Assembly: GCF_048128805.1 (NCBI RefSeq)
Contig: NC_136006.1
Span: 8,790,179 to 8,854,178 of the forward strand
Reading direction: 5' to 3'
Length of the DNA stretch: 64,000 bases
Source of the DNA: Centroberyx gerrardi
Taxonomy: Eukaryota; Chordata; Actinopteri; Beryciformes; Berycidae
This document shows, in pieces, positions 9,698-34,559 of the stretch. The position numbers and the translations under genes were made by a program. Under the pieces are notes generated by a model. The model ran no database searches, was not told the DNA's origin, and worked only from the letters and a program-made list of their open reading frames with translations. The stretch's first letter is position 1; the number at the start of each line of letters is the position of its first letter.

Positions 9698-12600
9698 TTA
9701 GACGGTGGTAGGAAGTGAGGGGCTGTCCACCGCCTCGGCCTTCTGCTCCGGCGAGCAGCAGAGGAAGAGGCGGCTGCCCAGGCTCTTGAAAGCAAACCGG
9801 AAGTACATGATGTGACCCATGGCCACGAAGGAGACGGAGATGATGACCAGCAGGCCAAAGGCTTCGGGGTTGGGAGCCAGAATCACCATGATGAAGTGCA
9901 GCAGGTCTAAGAGGTAGTTCATGGAGTTCTGGACGCCGTTGATCACCCCCCGCTCCGACTCGATCACATTCTCTTGGATGAGCTGGGTCACTGTCAGGTC
10001 GAAGGACCACAGGCCTTGAGGGGAAAGAGAGAGAGGGAGAGAGAGATCAACAGTGATTCGTAACATATTTTTACAGCCACATTAAAATGACTGTAGAAGA
10101 CAATCTTGGCTGTGGCTGTAATTATCAGGCAATATTATTGGCATCAAAGGTTGCCAATATTGCTCAGATATGCGTGGCAGATCCGGAGAGGCCTTCCGCT
10201 TAATGCCGGAGATGAGTGTAAAAGTTCATCATGTGGACCTGCTTTTACTCGCCTGAGTCAACTTTAGGAAGTCATAATTTGAAAAAATAGCCTTTTACAA
10301 CCTTCCAAAAGAAGGTTGAAGGAAGGAATTTGAACCTAGTTTATCCCAATGCTACATACTGAGAGCCATTTTTCTATAGCGTAAATCAAGCCGTCTCTAT
10401 AACTGCTACTCACCAACTCTAGCAGCAATGACTCCAGCAAACAGCAGACTGACGGACATGTAGGACTGCAGGGGCGGCAGCTCCTGGGCAGGTGCAGCGG
10501 TGGCGTTCACAGACAGGCTGTCGCTCGTCAGCACGCTGGTCAGGCTGTGGTCGCCCTCGGGCAGCGGGCTCTGGTTTCCGATCAGGTGGGTGTAGAGGTC
10601 CTGGAAGGGCGAGACGCTGAGGTCGAAGGGGCTTCCGGGGGCGAAGACGGACACCACGCACAGCATGAGGCAGGACAGCTGGGCCACGCCCGAGATGAAG
10701 CCCGTGCGAATCAGGCCGCACTTCTTGCGAACCCAGGTGAAGGCGACGGTGCCGCAGATGCCCGACACGGCCGAGGCGCCCATCAGCAGGCTGAGCACCG
10801 AGCCGTTGAGGCCCTGCATGTAGGCGTAGCCCGTGGTGATGCAGTCGAAGCCCAGCACCGTCATGTAGAGGAAGGCCAGGGACATGCCGGCGAAGAAGAT
10901 GTTCTGGTTGTAGTAGGCCACCCACCCGGTCTTGAAGGTGCGCACAGGTTCGGCCACCTGGTAGCAGCAGCCGCTCTGCTTGGGAGAGTCGGGCTTGACC
11001 ACCACCGAGGTTTCATTCATCAGCGGCTGGGACGACTCCTCAGGACTCTGGCCGTTCTCCAACTCTGCAAAAAGGGCAGAAAGAGGAAAAACGAGGTTAG
11101 GATTCTGTCAGGACCGTCGCACAGGGCAGAGCGGCAAGCTCCATGAACCAAACACTCAATTTGTAAAGTTTGACCGTAAGAAATTTCTACCAGGATTTTT
11201 GTTTTTGCTCTGAACTCTTGAATAGTCTAAAATCAAACATCACAGTTCTTAGCTATTTGGAGAGAGTTTTTAGGAAGGACCTAGGTAGGATAAGCATGAA
11301 CTGGCCTGCTACCTTTCTGGGTGCTGAGCTGTTTGAGCTCCTGGTCCTGCTCCTTCTGACCCGCTTTAACCGCCAGCGCCGGAGTCTTCTGGTAGACCTT
11401 CCACAGCAGAGCGTACTCCAGACACATGGAGCACAGGTTCCAGCCCGAGATGAAGCCGCAGCCAATGTAGTGGGAGCCAAAGGACATAATCTGTCCCACC
11501 AGCATGGGAGCCAGGATGTTGGTCAGCTGGTCTATGATCCTCACTGTGGCGTTCATGTCTGTTTGACAGAAGGTATAGTACAGTGTATTAAGTTTAACGC
11601 TGATAGATGTCAATTTACATTTATCAACCTCATGCCATGAAAAAAGAACAAAACAAAAAGATAAATGCACCTTAAAGCACAAAACCAATATAACACTATA
11701 ATCCTCTTATTTTGATAGTTTTTACAGTAATTCTTATGTCAGCAGGTTTTATTAGTTCCATGAATTATGCTAATATCACAGCAGATTGATAAAGGTCATC
11801 GAGTTCATAGACTCCACACAGCCAGTTATTGACTAACCTTATTTGCTTGTGAACATTTATAAGAGATAACTGCTGGGAATTATTGTTTTTTTTTCCGCTG
11901 TGTGAGAAAATCTGCTCAGCGGACTTTATCAACCAGGATGAACTTGTGAGGCCATAAAAAAAAAAAACGCCAAAACGAGAGTGATTCAGCGTTCACGAGG
12001 GTTCAAAGTTTGCCCCACTGAACAGAGCTGATAACCGGTCATGTGAGGCCTAAATCGATTAGGAGCTGGTAGCTGCTGTTGAGTCACTGACCTGCCAACT
12101 TGCTGCTGTCCTGTCCAGCCACAACCACCACCCAGTCCCTCTGGATGGTGATGGATGTAGCCGTACTGGCCAAGTTGGCGATGTTGGCGATGGTGATCAC
12201 CAGAATGTAGCAGGTCGTCTGCAAAACAAAATCATTTTCATCCTCAGTTTGATGATTTGTTAAATCTACAAATGAAGACTTAATCTAAATCTAAAGCTAC
12301 TAGTGGGATTTTTACATTCAAATGTTATTGTTAAATTGAAATTGTCTCAATTTTGTATCAATAAACATGAATATATAAACACATGCTGTGATATACATTC
12401 ATACATTACACATAAGATATCGTCCCCGTCAGGTGAAAACCTTGCATCTCCAATTTTGGTGATTTTCATGTTTAAATTTTGAATTAAAAGATCACATGCT
12501 TCTCTGTGGGTTGAGAAAATTCTCCAACTGTTTGTCTGTTTCCCATTCAAACCCTATAGAATAACAAAAATGCATTGTCAACAAGCTAAAAATAACGCTG

Positions 12601-23195: not shown

Positions 23196-23203
23196 CCGGA
23201 AGT
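23196..23203 (+). promoter_or_regulatory. ETS/GABP-type site in the ASDURF-ASNSD1 promoter
   Basis: CCGGAAGT sits about 120 bases before the ASDURF ATG with no TATA box. This is the common pattern for a housekeeping promoter. Confidence 0.45.
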
Positions 23204-23320
23204 ACATTAATCGGCCAGCATGTGTTTATGGTTTAGCTCTGAGCTGGTTCAGTTGGTTAGTTTCAACTAGATTTATACAAGCTGTCATTTGTGTTTGTCA
23301 GCGTAAACCTTTTAACAAAA

Positions 23321-24403
23321 ATGTCTTCTAAAGCCCGAGATAACGAAATTAGTTTTGAAGGACAGTCAACGATCAAGGAGGAATTAAACAAAAAGGTAAC
23401 GTTAGCCAAACATTGTAGCTATTAGCTACTAGCTAACAAATGTTAGCTAGGAAACAGCTATATTTATAATGTGTTTTTATCTCTGATGAAGTGAACAATA
23501 AGTGGATTCGTTTTGGTTCACAATTTGACTATTTTTGAGTACAGACTCTTATAGGACGAGGTTTGCAACTATGTAAATAATCTCTTAGCAACTTTAATTT
23601 GATGCCAAAGAAGTTATCATTTTACCAAATCTGTGAAATTGTTTGTTGCTACAGATCAAGGAGCAGAAGGTTGTAGTGGACGAGCTGTCCAATCTGAGGA
23701 AAAACAGGGTGAGTAGCCTTGTGTTGAAGGGAATATAGCAAAGTCTGACTTGTGTTAAATGTATTTAGGATGTTATTGTGCTTTGATGACTAGGAAAATA
23801 AACTTTATAATAGCAATTATGAACTTTATCTATTTAGCACTTAAAAAAAAAAACAGAGTTACAAAGTGATGGACAAAAGACAGCAAATACAACACATAAC
23901 AGCACAAAAGATTAAAGATTTTTTTGGAAAAAGGCATAAAAGTTAGTAGCTAAAAGCTAGATTGTACAGATGGGTTTTGAGTTTTTTCTTAAATTAAACA
24001 GAGTTTGCTACCCATATGTCTTCAGACAAGTTATTGATTGAAAATGTATTGGAGTTTACTTTTTTGTACGCTAAAACCCATCTTAAGTGGAATTTGCTAA
24101 GATAAACTGAAATCCACATAGTAAAGGAACCAGGAGTTTAAGTTGTCTTTTTTACTTTAATGCATGTTACACCTTTAATTTTTTCAGAAAGTCTTTGTCC
24201 AGCAGCGCAACAGTAACATTTTCTTCCTGGGAGACAGAGGACAGACACTTAGTTCATGCAAAAGTAAGTTGAAAACCCAAACCTAGAGTAAAGGAAGATA
24301 ATTTTAATGGTTTAACTAAATGATAAAGGCATATAGTAACATATGAAACTTTCTGTCCACAGAGGATTTGGACAACATGAAAAGGGAACTGCAGGACATG
24401 TAA
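23321..24403 (+). CDS. asdurf: ASDURF, prefoldin-like protein encoded upstream of ASNSD1 on the same mRNA
   Basis: A small protein of the beta-type prefoldin family, reported in human as a subunit of the PAQosome (R2TP/prefoldin-like co-chaperone). Coding exons are 23321-23395, 23655-23708, 24188-24263 and 24363-24403, with perfect GT-AG borders and phases, giving 81 aa. The core [20 protein letters not shown], then VQQRNSNIFFLGDR, closely matches the human protein as I remember it ([20 protein letters not shown]). Pattern: coiled-coil, beta hairpin, coiled-coil, as in prefoldins. It is shorter than human ASDURF (96 aa), mostly at the C-terminus. The TAA stop ends four bases before the ASNSD1 ATG in the same exon. 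The start is the first ATG after the promoter, with A at -3. It is too fragmented for simple ORF finding and easily missed. Confidence 0.92.
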
Positions 24404-24407
24404 AGCC

Positions 24408-27400
24408 ATGTGTGGAATATTCTGTCTGCTGAGGCTGTCGGCCCCTCAGCCTGAGCGGGACAAAACCGTCTATGAACATTTGAAAAGAAGAGGACCCAAC
24501 TCAAGTCAGGACCTCACCGTCACAGGCACCAATCTCTGCTATCAATGTGTATTCTCGGCCCACGTGCTTCACATGAGGGGCGTCCTGACCCCGCAGCCGG
24601 TCCAGGACGGCACCAGAAACGTCCTGGTGTGGAACGGGGAGGTTTTCGGAGGTTTGCCGGTGACGCCGGAGGAGAACGACACCGCCGTCCTCTCTCGGCA
24701 GCTGTCCGCCTGCAGCAAACCTGCAGAGATCCTGTCCGTCCTGTCCGGTGTCCGGGGACCGTGGGCGTTCGTTTACTACCAGCAGGCCGGCGACTTCCTC
24801 TGGTTTGGCAGAGACTTCTTCGGCAGGCGGAGTTTGCTTTGGAAATCTGAAGCCGAGGGGAACACCTTGACTCTGACGTCTGTGGCCGCCCGTGCTTCTG
24901 GACCGGATCAGTCCGCATGGCAAGAAGTCCCAGCAGTCGGTGTGTACAGGATTGATCTGAAAGCGGCTGCAGAAACCGGCTCCGTCACCTTTGAGGTTTA
25001 TCCTTGGGCTCATGTGGGAGATGATCTCTTCTCTAGCTGCAGTGAAGCAAAGTGGGCGTCTCTTCCTAGCAGCTGCACTGCGGTGATGAACCAATCAGGC
25101 CTTGTCCTCGCCTCACCTGTGTGCCCACTTAATATGTCGATCCCTCAGTTATTAAATGAGACAGAAGTTCATCCGAATTCACATCCATCTGTTGACGACC
25201 TGGAGCAGTTGCTGGCCTGCAGGGAGCAAAACAAAGAGGTGAACAGTCTTGTCGATGTGCTCAGTGAGGCAGTACGGCGACGCGTTCAGTGTCTCCCTTT
25301 AGGGCTGCAAGATGATTCAGCACCTACTGACCAAGCTGCTATTGCCATACTTTTCTCAGGAGGCATTGATTCAATGATTCTGGCTGCCTTGGCTGACCGT
25401 CACATACCTGCTCATCAGCCAATAGACCTTCTCAATGTAGCATTTAAACTGCAGGACCCAAAGACACAGAAAGAGTCCACAAAGAAACCCAAAAAGCACA
25501 AAAATAAGCCCTCGGATTCTACGACCGTTCGAGCCGATTCCCAAACATCCGGCCCCTTCGACGTCCCGGACAGGATTACAGGAAAAGCCGGTCTCAAGGA
25601 ATTGCAGGACTTGAATCCCGAGCGAAGGTGGAATTTTGTCGAAATCAACGTAACACAGGAGGAGCTTCAGAAGATGCGGCAGGAGCGCATTTGTCATCTG
25701 GTGCACCCGTTGGAGACGGTGCTTGATGACAGCATCGGATGTGCTGTGTGGTTTGCAGCCAGAGGGGCGGGGTTCATCACCGAGGACGACGACCAGAAGC
25801 TCTTCACGTCGTCAGCAAAGGTGAAGTTCACTGATCAAACATTGACCTTTCCAGGGACAAAGGCTTCTGAGAGCTGTTTAACATTTACCAATGCATGGGA
25901 TTTGATGCAACTATCCTTTGGGCTATATGAAAAAAACTGTTGGGGTCAAAGAGTTTTCACAATCCTCAACAACAGCATTAATTTGTATTAATGTCTTGTC
26001 TTGCTACTTTCTCCCCGCAGGTCATTTTGACAGGCATCGGAGCAGATGAGCAGCTGGCAGGATACTCCAGACACAGAGTCCGGTTTAAGATGTCCGGGCA
26101 CGAGGGACTGATCCAGGAACTGGCCATGGAGCTGGGCAGGATCTCCTCCAGGAACCTGGGCCGAGACGACAGAGTGATAGGAGACCATGGGAAGGAAGCT
26201 AGGTAGGAGTGGAAGTTGTTTCATATTCTGGATGTACCTCGGCATCGGCATGAAATGAGTATTAAGTGCTGGAATGGCCTTAAACTGCTGAGTAAATGGC
26301 TTATGCAAAAAAAAGTTGGCAGTATTATTGTAGAGGTAAAAGAAGTGGCCTTGGGATGGGGAGACTACTGCTCAAATTAACAGTGTGGCTGGGAAAATGT
26401 GAGTTGGGGGCAGCATGGTGGATCAGTGGTTAATACTGTCACGTCACAGCAAGAAGCACTTAGGTTAAATCCCCTTTCTGTGTGGAGTTGCATGTTCTCC
26501 CCGTTGACAGATCGCTCTTGAAAATGTTTTATTCATCTTTTATTGAGTCAATTTGAACTTTTGCAGTGGTCTGCTGGTTTGGCAACCTCAGCATGGTTGG
26601 GAAAAATAGGCTGGGAAAGATTGTTAAACTCTGCCAAAAGACCATTGGCACTAACTTGAATGATCTTGGCCACATTTATCAAGTTAGAGCCACTCAGAGG
26701 GCAAAGGCTGTTCTGGCGGACCCTCATCACCTTCTTCATGCAGAGTTTTGACTCCTGCCATCAGGGAGGAGGTACACTTTCCCTAGGAGGGCCAAATCAA
26801 ACAGATATTTGAGATCACTTGTTCCGTCAGCTGTTGGGTTTTTAAACAAGCTGTAGGCCTAGTTGCTATTGCACACACACTTTAACAAAGAACTGATGGA
26901 CTCTTAGTGCTTTATATCTCATTGCAACTTTATTATGATGACATCTACTGTATGTTATATGTATTTATGTCTTTTATTTATTTATTTTATGTTGTGTATT
27001 GGTTGTGTTGACTACTGTTTGCAAACCAAATTGCCCCTCGGGGACAATAAAGACTATCCAATCCAATCCAATCCCCATGTTTGCTGGGGTTTCCTCCCAC
27101 AGTCCAAAAACATGCAGATCAGGTGGTTTTCAGACTCTAAATTTCCCATAGTTATGAAAGTGAATAAGTGTCTTATCTGCATTCGCCCTGCTGACCTGTC
27201 CAGGGTGTTTCTGTGCCTTCTGCCTCATGCATGCTGGGACTGTCAGTTCCGTCCCCTGCTTGAGCAACTACTGTTGATTTATACTTGAGCAGCCAGCCAT
27301 AAAAGGTTGTAGTTATATTGGGTGGAGTGTGAAGCAGCACATTGCTGAAAAAGTGCTTGTGTCCTCTCTCAACCTGCCTCTGACAAATGGTAAACAAAAA

Positions 27401-27934
27401 TTGAAGTATACAATATGAGACAGGGCTTCATGTTTTTTATTGGAACATACAGTTAAGTAGCGGCAGTATTAGCACAGCAATGTGAAACCGGTTCTTTATA
27501 GTGTTTACTGAAGGAATTGACTTTTCTGATCTAAAGATGGAAGTAAAGCTATTAATAGTGATTATATGCGTAAAAGTTTAAATGTTAGAAAAGTTGTAGT
27601 TTCTGCACACTTTTTTTCTCTCAATTCCATTAATTGTCATATCACCACATTCAAGGGATTTGACAAATATCATTGTTTGCATTCTAGGTTCCCCTACTTG
27701 GACGAGGATGTGGTGAGCTACCTGAACTCCCTGCCTGTGTGGGAGAAGGCGGACTTGTCTCTGCCCCGGGGCGTCGGAGAGAAGCTCGTCCTGCGGCTGG
27801 CGGCGAAGCGGCTGGGCCTCGGCTCCTCGGCCGTCCTGCCAAAGAGAGCCATGCAGTTCGGCTCCCGCATCGCCAAGCTGGAGAACAGCCGCGAAAAGGC
27901 TTCGGACAAATGCAAGAGACTCCTCACAGCGTAG
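24408..27934 (+). CDS. asnsd1: ASNSD1, asparagine synthetase domain-containing protein 1, complete
   Basis: Coding exons 24408-25820, 26021-26202 and 27688-27934 join in phase to 613 aa (human 643). The N-terminus [10 protein letters not shown] begins a class-II glutamine amidotransferase domain with Cys2. FAYYQ-like and [15 protein letters not shown] motifs follow. The C-terminal half is an asparagine-synthase-type ATP-pyrophosphatase domain with the PP-loop LFSGGIDS (about residues 315-322), [17 protein letters not shown], and [20 protein letters not shown]. The ending [14 protein letters not shown] is also conserved. The enzymatic activity is not well established in animals. Translation must start after the ASDURF frame, either by leaky scanning or by reinitiation. 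Intron two (26203-27687) contains a SINE split by a LINE. The gene is convergent with the nucleotidyltransferase at 28181. Confidence 0.97.
26402..27262 (+). mobile_element. tRNA-derived SINE split in two by a LINE insertion (ASNSD1 intron 2)
   Basis: The left half (26402-26504) has GGCAGCATGGTGGATCAGTGG (tRNA A-box type head) and TCTGTGTGGAGTTGCATG then TTCTCCCCG. The right half (from about 27075) resumes with TTTCCTCCCACAGTCC and AAAAACATGCAGATCAGGTGG, then GTCCAGGGTGTTTCTG. The two halves are the known consecutive parts of one fish SINE. Confidence 0.7.
26505..27074 (+). mobile_element. LINE ORF2 C-terminal fragment and 3' tail, inserted in the SINE
   Basis: A frame reads [20 protein letters not shown]...[10 protein letters not shown], then a shifted [19 protein letters not shown], typical of the end of fish LINE ORF2. 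Downstream is ...GGGGACAATAAAGACTATCC followed by AATCCAATCC repeats as the 3' tail. It is 5'-truncated and inactive. Confidence 0.7.
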
Positions 27935-28180: not shown

Positions 28181-31100
28181 CTACACCATGTAAGACTCAA
28201 CATCTTGAAGTTTTTCTCTGAAATACAGGTCACATTCAGTATAGGAAGGCAAGTTTCCAACATCGAAACGCCCAGAGATCTCATGGATGTAGACCGGCCT
28301 CCTGAAATAAAAAAAACACAAAATATTGGGCTAATTTATTAAGGAATACACTGACAAACTTATACAGAGTGCATTGCTGCATATTAGACAATACCTAGCC
28401 TTTAAAATGGATATCACAAGCAAAAAGGTTTTGTTTTGCAAATCTAATGCATCTTTTGATTTAAATTACATGTTATGTTGATAAGCCATTGTAAAAGCAG
28501 GAAACCAACTTGGGTCTGGCTGTTTTGCAAAAATGTACTTTGCAGTGGGAAATTGCTTGGGTTGCCTCCATAATGAGCATTTAGATGTGAAATTCCTGAC
28601 TCCTTGATTATTTCCTTTACAGGTTTTAGCTTAGTATCTTCATCGTTTTACATATAAAATACTCAAACATGGCCTCAAGTGCTTCCAGGTCATGCTTTGT
28701 GTTCAAAGCCAAGAACCACTGACTTGAAACAAGACAAGACCTATTGGATGCTGTGATGATGCTGCCAATAGAGACACTTGACAGTTTTTCACAGCTCAGT
28801 ATTTTGGCTCAATTAGTGAGCGACAATCTGTGTGCCGGCTGAATTACCTTGGAATGAGCCAAGACACAAAGTTTCCTGGAGCATCTTTTTCTTCAATAGG
28901 AGCTTCCTAAGGGGGGAAAAAAAAGTTGTGCATTATAGTTAAATTACAAAAGCCACAAGTTATCCTGAATTCACATCACATGGAGGAATATTGATTATTT
29001 GATCTACCTTCTTTTCTTCAAGGAAGGCATCCAAGGGGAGAAGGCTTTTCTTTGAAAACAAATAGAAGCAGGGGCACTGCAAAACCAACAATAGAAATGA
29101 TTAGGGTGGGCTTTTACTGAAAGCTGCACACTAAGGCTTTAACCTCAAATTAATTGTTATATTGCCTGGTTGATTCATATTGCCAATTCATGGTCAAGAG
29201 ATTTGATAGATCTTGTTGGCATTCTGTGTTCCCCGACTTGGATGAGGATGTGGTGAGCTACTCAAATTCCCTGTGTGTGTGTGTGTTGGATAACTCAAAC
29301 AGAACAACAGGAATCACAAACTGTTTGGGTAGGAGCGCTTCCTGGACTCAAAATTAAGTTTGTTTGAGGTGCTCTTTGGATAGGGATACATGTAGACACA
29401 AAAGTACAAAAGAACTCCAAGGCACTCTCTTTAAACCAATTAAAATGCCTATAATGTCATGGCATGGTCATATTAGACTTTAAAAACACGACGCGTTTTG
29501 GCATCAAGCCTTCGTCAGGAAGTCAACTTTGACTTCCTGACGAAGGCTTGATGCCGAAAGTCAAAGTTTGTTTTTTTGTATTTTTTTGTCAACAGGAATC
29601 ACAAGTTGGGTGATGCTCTTAACGGGCTGCATTTTTACGCAAGGATTTGGCATAAACTCAATCATCTCATGGCTGTTGAAACAAGAAAAATCAGTTTTCA
29701 TGTAGAGCCTTCCTTGTTTGACAGCCATGTAAAAGTGTGAGCTGCACCACACAGAGTCAAAAATCTGATCTTCTGTGCCTGTGTGAATATAATCTTGGAT
29801 CAGTGTACAGCAGAAGCTACTACTACAGGTTACAGTGAACTTACTGCTCTCCTTGATTTCGTCTCAGAAGGAAGCGGCTTCTCCTTCATACAGACGACCC
29901 GGAGATCTTCATCCACTTCCAGTATTCCATATTTACGGGTCTCTATTTAGAAACAGACACATAACACTGTAACAATCCATAACTACTTCTGAGCATGAAG
30001 CTGTGGTTGAATTTTGTTTTTTCTTGAAGATTATTACTTGGCCATTATCACTTTTATAAGATAGTACAAAGTAGAGAGAGTGACAGGAAAGACTGGGAGA
30101 GAGAGAGAGAGGGGGATGACATGCGACAAAGGTCCTGAGCCAGATTTGAACCCAGGATGTGTTTGAAATTTTGGGCTGGAAATTTTGAGTTGGGGAAGTG
30201 ATGAGTGACTCTCTCCTCTCTCCCCTAACAACTGCTATAGAGGAGCTTCGAAACACTGCATTTAACTAGGGCTGCAACTAACTAACTTATTTTCATTATA
30301 GATCTTTTTTTTTTCAATTAACTGATTAATCATTTAGTCTATAAAATGCCAAAAATAATGACAAATGCCCGTCACAAGTTACCAGAGCCCAAAGTGATTC
30401 TTAAAATGTCTTACTTAGTCTGACCAGCCGCTAAAAATCCCTAAGTATAAATTTTATAATGACATGAAAGAGGGGAAAAACAAGCAAATCTTAGCATTTG
30501 TGAAGCTGTAACCAGCAAATGTTTGGTATCTTTACTTGATAAATGACTCAAAATTATTATCAATTAATTTTCTATCGATCGACTAATCCATTAATCAACC
30601 AATCGTTTCAGCACTACACTTTACCCAAAAATGCTACAGTGAAGCTGCTCAAATTTATGAATGTGAAGCAGGGTTTTAAATGTGTTTTAAATATTCCATA
30701 TAGAAAAAGTTGTTTAGCATAAATGTTCTGAGCATTTCACATTCATCCTTCACATTTAGATGTTAGAGGCAGCACAGAAGCCACTTAGGTACGTAAATGC
30801 TGCGATAAAGGAGCACTCACCCTCCTCTTTACACTGGTAGGAAAGCACGAGACAGCTCTCCTCACACTTTGCCTGTAGGTCAGAAAACCTCAGTTTGACT
30901 TTCCTGAGGCTGAAATCTTCTCTGAAGAGCGTGTCGCTGTTTCAGATGGAAAGAGAATTTTATCAGTTTGTCAGAAACAGGACTTAAATTTGACATCTAT
31001 ATTAGAATTGTCAATGCATAAGTTCAGTGAACGCACCCTCCAATAACTATGATGTGATCTTCTATCTTGAAATGTTTTACTGCAAGCTGCAAGCAGGCCA

Positions 31101-34100: not shown

Positions 34101-34541
34101 CAAGACAAAGGGCATAGAGATATAACAGTTATATCAGTGTTATATCTCTATGACAAAGGGCGGCTATACTTTAAAGAATCTAAAATATAAGATAGTTTTG
34201 ATTTGACTTTTTCCAAACTTTTGACAGGTAGTGTGTGATATGCCCCTTCTCCTTTGCCTAGCACCGTTTGGGAGGTCACAGTCCACTTTCAGGTTGTACG
34301 TGTGCTCGGTGTACAACAGCATTACTACTAGAGCACTAATGTTACTTACAACAACATAGATGCAGTCCACACACCCCGCGGCTGTCAGCGCATGGACCCA
34401 GTGTGAGATTAAAGCACAGCGGCCCACCGGCAGTAACGGCTTGGCGGTACCGGCCAGGTGTGTGAACCGCCCGCTGCTGTCGTTAGCGACATCTCTCTGG
34501 AGCCTGGTTCCGTATCCGGCGGCGAGAATAACGGCTTTCAT
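28181..34541 (-). CDS. Sugar-1-phosphate nucleotidyltransferase family protein (RmlA/GlmU-like fold), 8 exons
   Basis: Predicted cytosolic enzyme that would join an NTP and a sugar 1-phosphate to give an NDP-sugar plus pyrophosphate; the true substrate is unknown. Exons: 34541-34350, 33426-33337, 31116-31037, 30936-30821, 29942-29845, 29076-29008, 28906-28848, 28301-28181, all in phase, 274 aa. MKAVILAAGYGTRL at the N-terminus is the nucleotide-binding signature loop. TAKPLLPVG supplies the family lysine (Lys34). HIIVIGGDTLF holds the metal-binding Asp, and VVCMKEKP corresponds to the E-x-EKP region. EISGRFDVGN resembles the late FWxDVGT motif. The length is that of the catalytic domain alone, without the C-terminal left-handed helix of GlmU or GMPPB. 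The family is largely bacterial. I do not recall an obvious human counterpart at this locus. No signal peptide or membrane span. Confidence 0.85.
29150..29280 (+). pseudogene. Decayed duplicate of the start of ASNSD1 exon 3
   Basis: GACTTGGATGAGGATGTGGT then GAGCTACTCAAATTCCCTG matches the beginning of ASNSD1 exon 3 at 27693-27735, and the matching flank of the preceding intron (GATTTGA...TTG..GCATTCT) is also present. The acceptor AG has become GT, and a GT repeat replaces the downstream coding sequence. It lies within an intron of the opposite-strand nucleotidyltransferase gene. Confidence 0.8.
29496..29559. repeat. Near-perfect 31-bp palindrome (hairpin)
   Basis: The left arm (29496-29526) contains GGCATCAAGCCTTCGTCAGG and the right arm (29529-29559) contains its complement CCTGACGAAGGCTTGATGCC. 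There is one G-T mismatch and a two-base centre. The GACGCGTTTTGGCATCAAGC-type sequence is also seen in dispersed vertebrate repeats. Confidence 0.9.
30267..30619. mobile_element. TIR MITE, AGGGCTGCAACTAAC family
   Basis: Begins AGGGCTGCAACTAACTAAC and ends CAACCAATCGTTTCAGCACT, with interior AATTAACTGATTAATCATTT and TCTATAAAATGCCAAAAATA. A well-known type of fish interspersed element. A fragment of the same family is at about 55740-55815. Confidence 0.7.
31230..31665 (+). mobile_element. LINE fragment: ORF2 C-terminus and 3' tail
   Basis: A plus-strand frame includes NVPNTRTEFGKRAFSHLG, then NYSWTISYQF and LKSRLKNCCF, the usual GKRAFSxxxPxxWNxLQ end of a fish LINE reverse transcriptase. It is followed by ...GGCGAGGGCTCACTTGAAAA and CCTGGTTAAAGAAAGGATAA, the matching 3' tail with an (AT)n end. 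It lies in an intron of the nucleotidyltransferase. Confidence 0.7.
32668..33305. mobile_element. MITE of the GACCAAGTCAACTTTGC family, copy 1
   Basis: Starts CAGAGGTGTGACCAAGTCAA and ends with a diverged inverse, GACTCGAGTCCCCTCCTCTG. The interior is full of CAAGTCCCAAGTCTAAATG words, and the start is repeated internally at 32836. Other copies lie at 52125-52490 and 56380-56800. Confidence 0.75.
33918..34234. mobile_element. TIR MITE, ACTACCAGTCAAAAG family, copy 2
   Basis: Starts CACTACCAGTCAAAGG and ends CTTTTGACAGGTAGTGTG, with the same interior as the copy at 14320. A secondary hairpin (GAGATATAAC...GTTATATCTC) sits in the middle near 34117-34150. Confidence 0.75.
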
Positions 34542-34559
34542 TGAAATTTAAGCTAGGAG

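Follow-up and report, generated by a model that had tools for sequence, protein, structure and literature searches.

The Centroberyx gerrardi ASDURF-ASNSD1 locus: two conserved coding frames separated by four bases

Introduction

When the start codon of a protein lies four bases beyond the stop codon of another conserved protein, how do ribosomes reach it? This question is raised by the ASDURF-ASNSD1 locus in a 64,000-nucleotide stretch of the Centroberyx gerrardi genome (contig NC_136006.1, positions 8,790,179 to 8,854,178 of the forward strand), referred to here as the window; all coordinates are window positions. ASDURF is the upstream open reading frame (uORF) of the ASNSD1 gene, and its stop codon and the ASNSD1 ATG are located in one exon. 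The best explanation of the locus as a whole, to which we assign a probability of about 0.88, is that it is an ortholog of a known gene that gives one bicistronic mRNA, from which ASNSD1 would be translated mainly by leaky scanning. The orthology, and the coding of two proteins, are almost certain.

Coding capacity of the locus

The four ASDURF exons (Table 1), whose splicing was predicted from the sequence, join to give 246 nucleotides in frame, encoding 81 residues and a stop; all three introns begin with gt and end with ag. There was no in-frame ATG 5' of position 23321 as far back as the preceding stop codon (stop-to-stop frame, 23261-23425). The product matched the Pfam family PF21975 (ASNSD1-SEP), titled 'ASNSD1 upstream open reading frame protein', with an E value of 5.4e-24 and a score of 84.6 bits, compared to a curated cut-off of 27. 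The alignment extended over residues 15-80 of the 81 and over positions 20-85 of the 96 in the profile. Two other families appeared in the same scan, AAA_19 (E 0.0049, 17.5 bits, cut-off 25.1) and CCDC-167 (E 0.084); both were sub-threshold and were taken as chance matches.

A check of the reading frame itself agreed with this match. Frame 0 of the spliced exons was open, with four and six stops in the remaining two frames, and only 81 of 20,000 base-shuffled versions of the exons stayed open. The composition score was 0.248 bits per codon in the coding frame, compared to -0.174 and 0.017 in the other frames. This whole check is weaker than the Pfam match and biased in favour of coding, because the splice sites had been picked for an open frame.

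The ASNSD1 frame was intact, with 613 codons over three exons, and no other combination of the splice sites tried gave an open frame. Two exon junctions of this model (25820/26021 and 26202/27688) are located 3' of the ASDURF stop. Its 613-residue product matched the Pfam family Asn_synthase (E 1.1e-16); a further match to GATase_7 (E 1.1e-4, 22.7 bits) fell under the curated cut-off of 25. A decayed local copy of the border between ASNSD1 intron 2 and exon 3 (27651-27741) was observed on the plus strand at 29194-29281, with 73 of 91 alignment columns identical and three gaps; this copy does not retain the AG of the splice site.

These results bear directly on an earlier reading of the same DNA (the original prediction). 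It had described a four-exon ASDURF frame with its stop at 24401-24403 and the ASNSD1 ATG at 24408 in the same exon, coordinates that were exact to the base, and the four-base gap that it reported between the frames is the AGCC at 24404-24407. Its naming of the two genes was borne out by the PF21975 match and by the Asn_synthase match on the intact frame. The human ASDURF-ASNSD1 pair has already been published, so that the locus, as judged by its sequence, is orthologous to a vertebrate gene that is already known.

Table 1. Window coordinates of the ASDURF-ASNSD1 coding exons, their junction and the candidate promoter motif.
Feature	Position	Strand	Remarks
CCGGAAGT, ETS-type core promoter motif (presumed)	23196..23203	+	125 nucleotides above the ASDURF ATG; putative promoter role
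ASDURF coding exon 1	23321..23395	+	75 nucleotides; ATG at 23321, A at -3, T at +4
ASDURF coding exon 2	23655..23708	+	54 nucleotides; gt/ag borders
ASDURF coding exon 3	24188..24263	+	76 nucleotides; gt/ag borders
ASDURF part of exon 4	24363..24403	+	41 nucleotides; stop TAA 24401-24403; exon runs on into ASNSD1
ATGTAA, final ASDURF codon with its stop; doubles as a one-codon start-stop element	24398..24403	+	AUG at mRNA offset +240, frame length 1
Spacer AGCC, four bases	24404..24407	+	between ASDURF stop and ASNSD1 ATG
ASNSD1 coding exon 1	24408..25820	+	ATG 24408-24410, G at -3, T at +4
ASNSD1 coding exon 2	26021..26202	+	open three-exon frame
ASNSD1 coding exon 3	27688..27934	+	contains the stop

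Comparison with human ASDURF and other bicistronic systems

The human reference was a 96-residue approximation of the ASDURF sequence. It matched all 96 positions of PF21975 with 213.7 bits, and the full-length match indicates that the approximation is close. The same two proteins are encoded in the same order by one gene in both species, and both upstream products match PF21975. Of the 72 aligned positions, 42 were identical in the C. gerrardi protein and the human reference, with 30 of 36 identical in the core that begins at residue 25 with KIKEQK, and 19 of 24 over residues 20-43. The claim that the core is almost unchanged from the human protein therefore holds for the core only; the N- and C-termini both differ, and the frame has 81 codons here compared to 96 in the human reference.

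Human ASDURF-ASNSD1 has been reported as a bicistronic transcript and was one of 14 to pass a filter that combined long reads, ribosome footprints and purifying selection across 100 aligned vertebrate genomes (PMC13303939). In the excerpts of two reviews, ASDURF is reported to be essential to MYC-driven medulloblastoma cells, separately from ASNSD1 (PMC11437038, PMC11900008). One table lists ASDURF as 40 amino acids and disagrees on its size (PMC9776223). No report of ASDURF in fish was found in the open-licence literature, as judged by the titles and opening lines of abstracts for part of the matches. A survey of conserved small open reading frames in which zebrafish was included (PMC4568590) makes no mention of ASNSD1, and no paper using the name ASNSD1-SEP was found in the open-licence literature. 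It had also been suggested that ASDURF is usually missing from standard gene models, which retain ASNSD1 alone; for human this is out of date, as there is a reviewed ASDURF_HUMAN entry, mentioned in the excerpt of PMC8894207, and a Pfam family named for ASDURF. The locus argues for annotation of ASDURF wherever ASNSD1 is annotated. Where ASDURF models are lost, a chaperone-complex subunit would go unseen. Further work on the human pair has reportedly been published by Cloutier et al. in 2020 and by Hofman et al. in 2024.

It is extremely improbable that the upstream frame acts as a regulatory uORF only and has no function as a protein. The human ASDURF frame does repress downstream output approximately two-fold (PMC8894207), as that explanation would have it, but the match to PF21975 is at the protein level, the identities to the human ASDURF reference are numerous (42 of 72), and the human protein has been found in a prefoldin-like complex (PMC11009110). 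The first two of these findings support the original view of the frame as a conserved protein.

The rule that each vertebrate mRNA encodes one protein has known exceptions, and the locus illustrates one of them cleanly. The SLC35A4/STREMI and MIEF1 bicistronic mRNAs likewise carry a conserved vertebrate uORF protein 5' of an unrelated main protein (excerpts of PMC4383229 and PMC13303939); their proteins are unrelated to ASDURF and ASNSD1, and stress-resistant translation has been reported for SLC35A4. An Arabidopsis protein also named ASDURF (AT1G49245) is described as a beta-type prefoldin-like subunit and UXT interactor; it is listed under a locus number of its own and not as a uORF of ASNSD1 (PMC10893143).

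Relationship of ASDURF to prefoldins

The prefoldin-like complex and the PAQosome are reported to contain human ASDURF as a subunit (PMC11009110, PMC9406135), and it co-elutes with them (PMC11009110). In the excerpted text the prefoldin claim rests on predicted structures, in which the model was likened to beta-prefoldins, together with co-purification (PMC11009110). By analogy with the human protein, C. gerrardi ASDURF would belong to the R2TP/prefoldin-like co-chaperone (PAQosome) as a small beta-type prefoldin-like subunit, and would have a function separate from that of ASNSD1.

Comparisons with prefoldin sequences gave no support to this part of the explanation. There was no PF01920 (Prefoldin_2) row for the C. 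gerrardi protein up to E 10, although HMMER filters drop most matches above approximately 0.1. The archaeal positive control matched PF01920 at 4.4e-25, and the human ASDURF reference gave E 0.0019 and 18.6 bits, under the cut-off of 27.6. Alignment by hhalign to a profile of ten narrow archaeal prefoldin beta sequences gave a score of 14.79. Among 200 pattern-keeping shuffles 18 scored at least as high, as did nine among 200 full shuffles; the score of the ASDURF sequence in reverse was 14.16. A PDB search returned ten rows up to E 10, of which the best was a mitochondrial ribosomal protein (E 0.12) and the last was the prefoldin beta subunit 3aei (E 4.8). Homology of ASDURF to prefoldin was thus not supported at the sequence level by these Pfam, hhalign and PDB results.

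Transcription of the locus

Transcription probably starts just downstream of the CCGGAAGT octamer upstream of ASDURF, which we take to be an ETS-type motif. The octamer or its complement is present at two places in the window. Two more AUGs are located at -101 and -93 of the ASDURF ATG, in a scan that extended up to 23200, and are relevant only if transcription starts above them.

A shorter mRNA encoding ASNSD1 only may be made, which would count against a single bicistronic message. That ASNSD1 is expressed mainly from such a transcript, starting below 23321 or skipping the ASDURF exons, so that the locus would be an overlapping gene pair and not a bicistron, is nevertheless improbable; the sole CCGGAAGT motif near the gene is located above the ASDURF start.

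Translation of ASNSD1

In the proposed mechanism, a single promoter would give rise to a single spliced mRNA from which two independent proteins are translated. The majority of scanning ribosomes would initiate at the ASDURF AUG. Ribosomes that leak past this AUG, the context of which is imperfect (T at +4), would produce ASNSD1 in lower amounts, and a smaller share would come from ribosomes that reinitiate directly after the ASDURF stop. We slightly favour leaky scanning as the larger of the two routes, although the sequence does not decide between them. In a human reporter, ablation of the ASDURF start (AUG.3 of the leader) increased downstream luciferase only 2.27-fold (PMC8894207), which suggests that some ribosomes pass the ASDURF start; by our own arithmetic, this corresponds to the retention of about 40% of the possible initiations downstream when the uORF is present, in a construct that is a reporter and not the native mRNA.

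The alternative, that ASNSD1 is produced mainly by termination-coupled reinitiation, in which a 40S subunit from the ASDURF stop reaches the AUG four nucleotides away, is possible but in our estimation unlikely. The concern in the original prediction that reinitiation would be inefficient across so short a gap is fair; it did not consider that ribosomes may leak past the start of ASDURF. In favour of reinitiation, the ASDURF frame ends in ATG TAA; with AUG as the terminal sense codon, DENR-MCTS1 would be required to evict the tRNA. However, the four-nucleotide gap leaves little scanning time to regain initiator tRNA, and human ASDURF presumably does not end in methionine, unlike the AUG-UAA end here. 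A structured RNA element at the junction was not supported, as folding did not differ from that of shuffled sequences (z -0.06; 80 of 200 shuffles folded at least equally well).

Published studies of reinitiation fall on both sides. Reinitiation after penultimate AUG codons is reported to be DENR-dependent (PMC7494916), and the penultimate AUG of ASDURF, immediately before UAA, falls in this class; uORF stops with a build-up of 40S subunits are named in the excerpt of the same paper as enriched for CTG and GCG, not ATG. Reinitiation is still permitted by a spacing of 17 nucleotides (Asb8), but changes to the penultimate codon affected a Klhdc8a reporter only weakly in vitro (both PMC11790910). 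In one transcriptome-wide model from mouse cells, a larger distance between the uORF and the coding sequence was a predictor of DENR-dependent reinitiation (PMC6547434); at ASDURF-ASNSD1 this distance is four nucleotides. In reporters, reinitiation favoured small uORFs, large uORFs being far more repressive (PMC10187673), although the large uORF in that work had 561 codons compared to 81 here. The distance trend and the preference for small uORFs therefore point away from reinitiation at this locus. Reinitiation is also reported to protect only incompletely from decay (PMC10187673).

Other observations tell against leaky scanning as the main route. A leaking ribosome must pass four AUGs, at 0, +197, +219 and +240; position -3 is A for the AUGs at 0 and +219 and G for the one at +240. 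The AUGs at +219 and +240 are in the ASDURF frame, the latter immediately before the stop, and the AUG at +197 is out of frame, with T at -3 and a frame that extends past the ASNSD1 start. Depletion of AUGs as a sign of leaky scanning was considered and rejected: one out-of-frame AUG was observed, compared to an expectation of 0.73 when codons were permuted and of 0.90 from the codon usage of ASNSD1, and in a proportion of 0.40 of usage-matched sequences the first later AUG was at +197 or beyond. As out-of-frame AUGs are at the expected level, there was no sign in these counts of selection for leaky scanning. Furthermore, uORF length is reported to be unrelated to DENR dependence and without predictive value (PMC6547434), and spacers of 16 and 115 nucleotides made no difference in HeLa cells (PMC10187673), so that the case against reinitiation is weakened. 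One uORF study, as excerpted, found that the majority of long uORFs are permissive for reinitiation.

The AUG-UAA ending of ASDURF, four nucleotides 5' of the ASNSD1 AUG, is the single less ordinary detail of the locus. In c-Raf uORFs an AUG-stop element likewise ends a longer upstream frame; in the excerpted text the c-Raf uORFs are not called functional proteins, unlike ASDURF. That in this lineage the terminal AUG-UAA serves as a start-stop gate controlling ASNSD1 is a long shot. If it were true, ASNSD1 output would be DENR-MCTS1-dependent, and the two proteins could be switched to a different ratio at constant mRNA. How ASNSD1 is reached across four bases, and the role of the AUG-UAA end, make a modest bench question, for which this ending offers a cheap natural test of ribosome passage between long frames.

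Neighbouring genes

Nine chosen open frames in the surroundings were scanned against Pfam; six matched a family and three did not. Ferroportin frames were present on the minus strand at 9701-11107 (FPN1, 5.2e-53 and 2.7e-27). The other CCGGAAGT of the window, at 9797, lies inside the second ferroportin open frame, outside the part that matches the profile. A TsaD frame, presumably OSGEPL1-like, was found on the minus strand at 56.9-57.3 kilobases (kb). In the human genome SLC40A1 and OSGEPL1 lie next to ASNSD1, an arrangement that would be consistent with orthology. On the plus strand, frames matching a 2OG-Fe(II) oxygenase and a deaminase are located at 59.8-60.6 kb and 62.4-63.5 kb, respectively. 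A nucleotidyl transferase-like gene lies 3' of ASNSD1 on the minus strand and points towards it (34167-34547; NTP_transf_3, 7.4e-7; NTP_transferase, 1.5e-5). Two frames, at 29936-30265 and, on the minus strand, at 28184-28330, matched no Pfam family at E 0.001 and by eye appear to be later exons of this gene.
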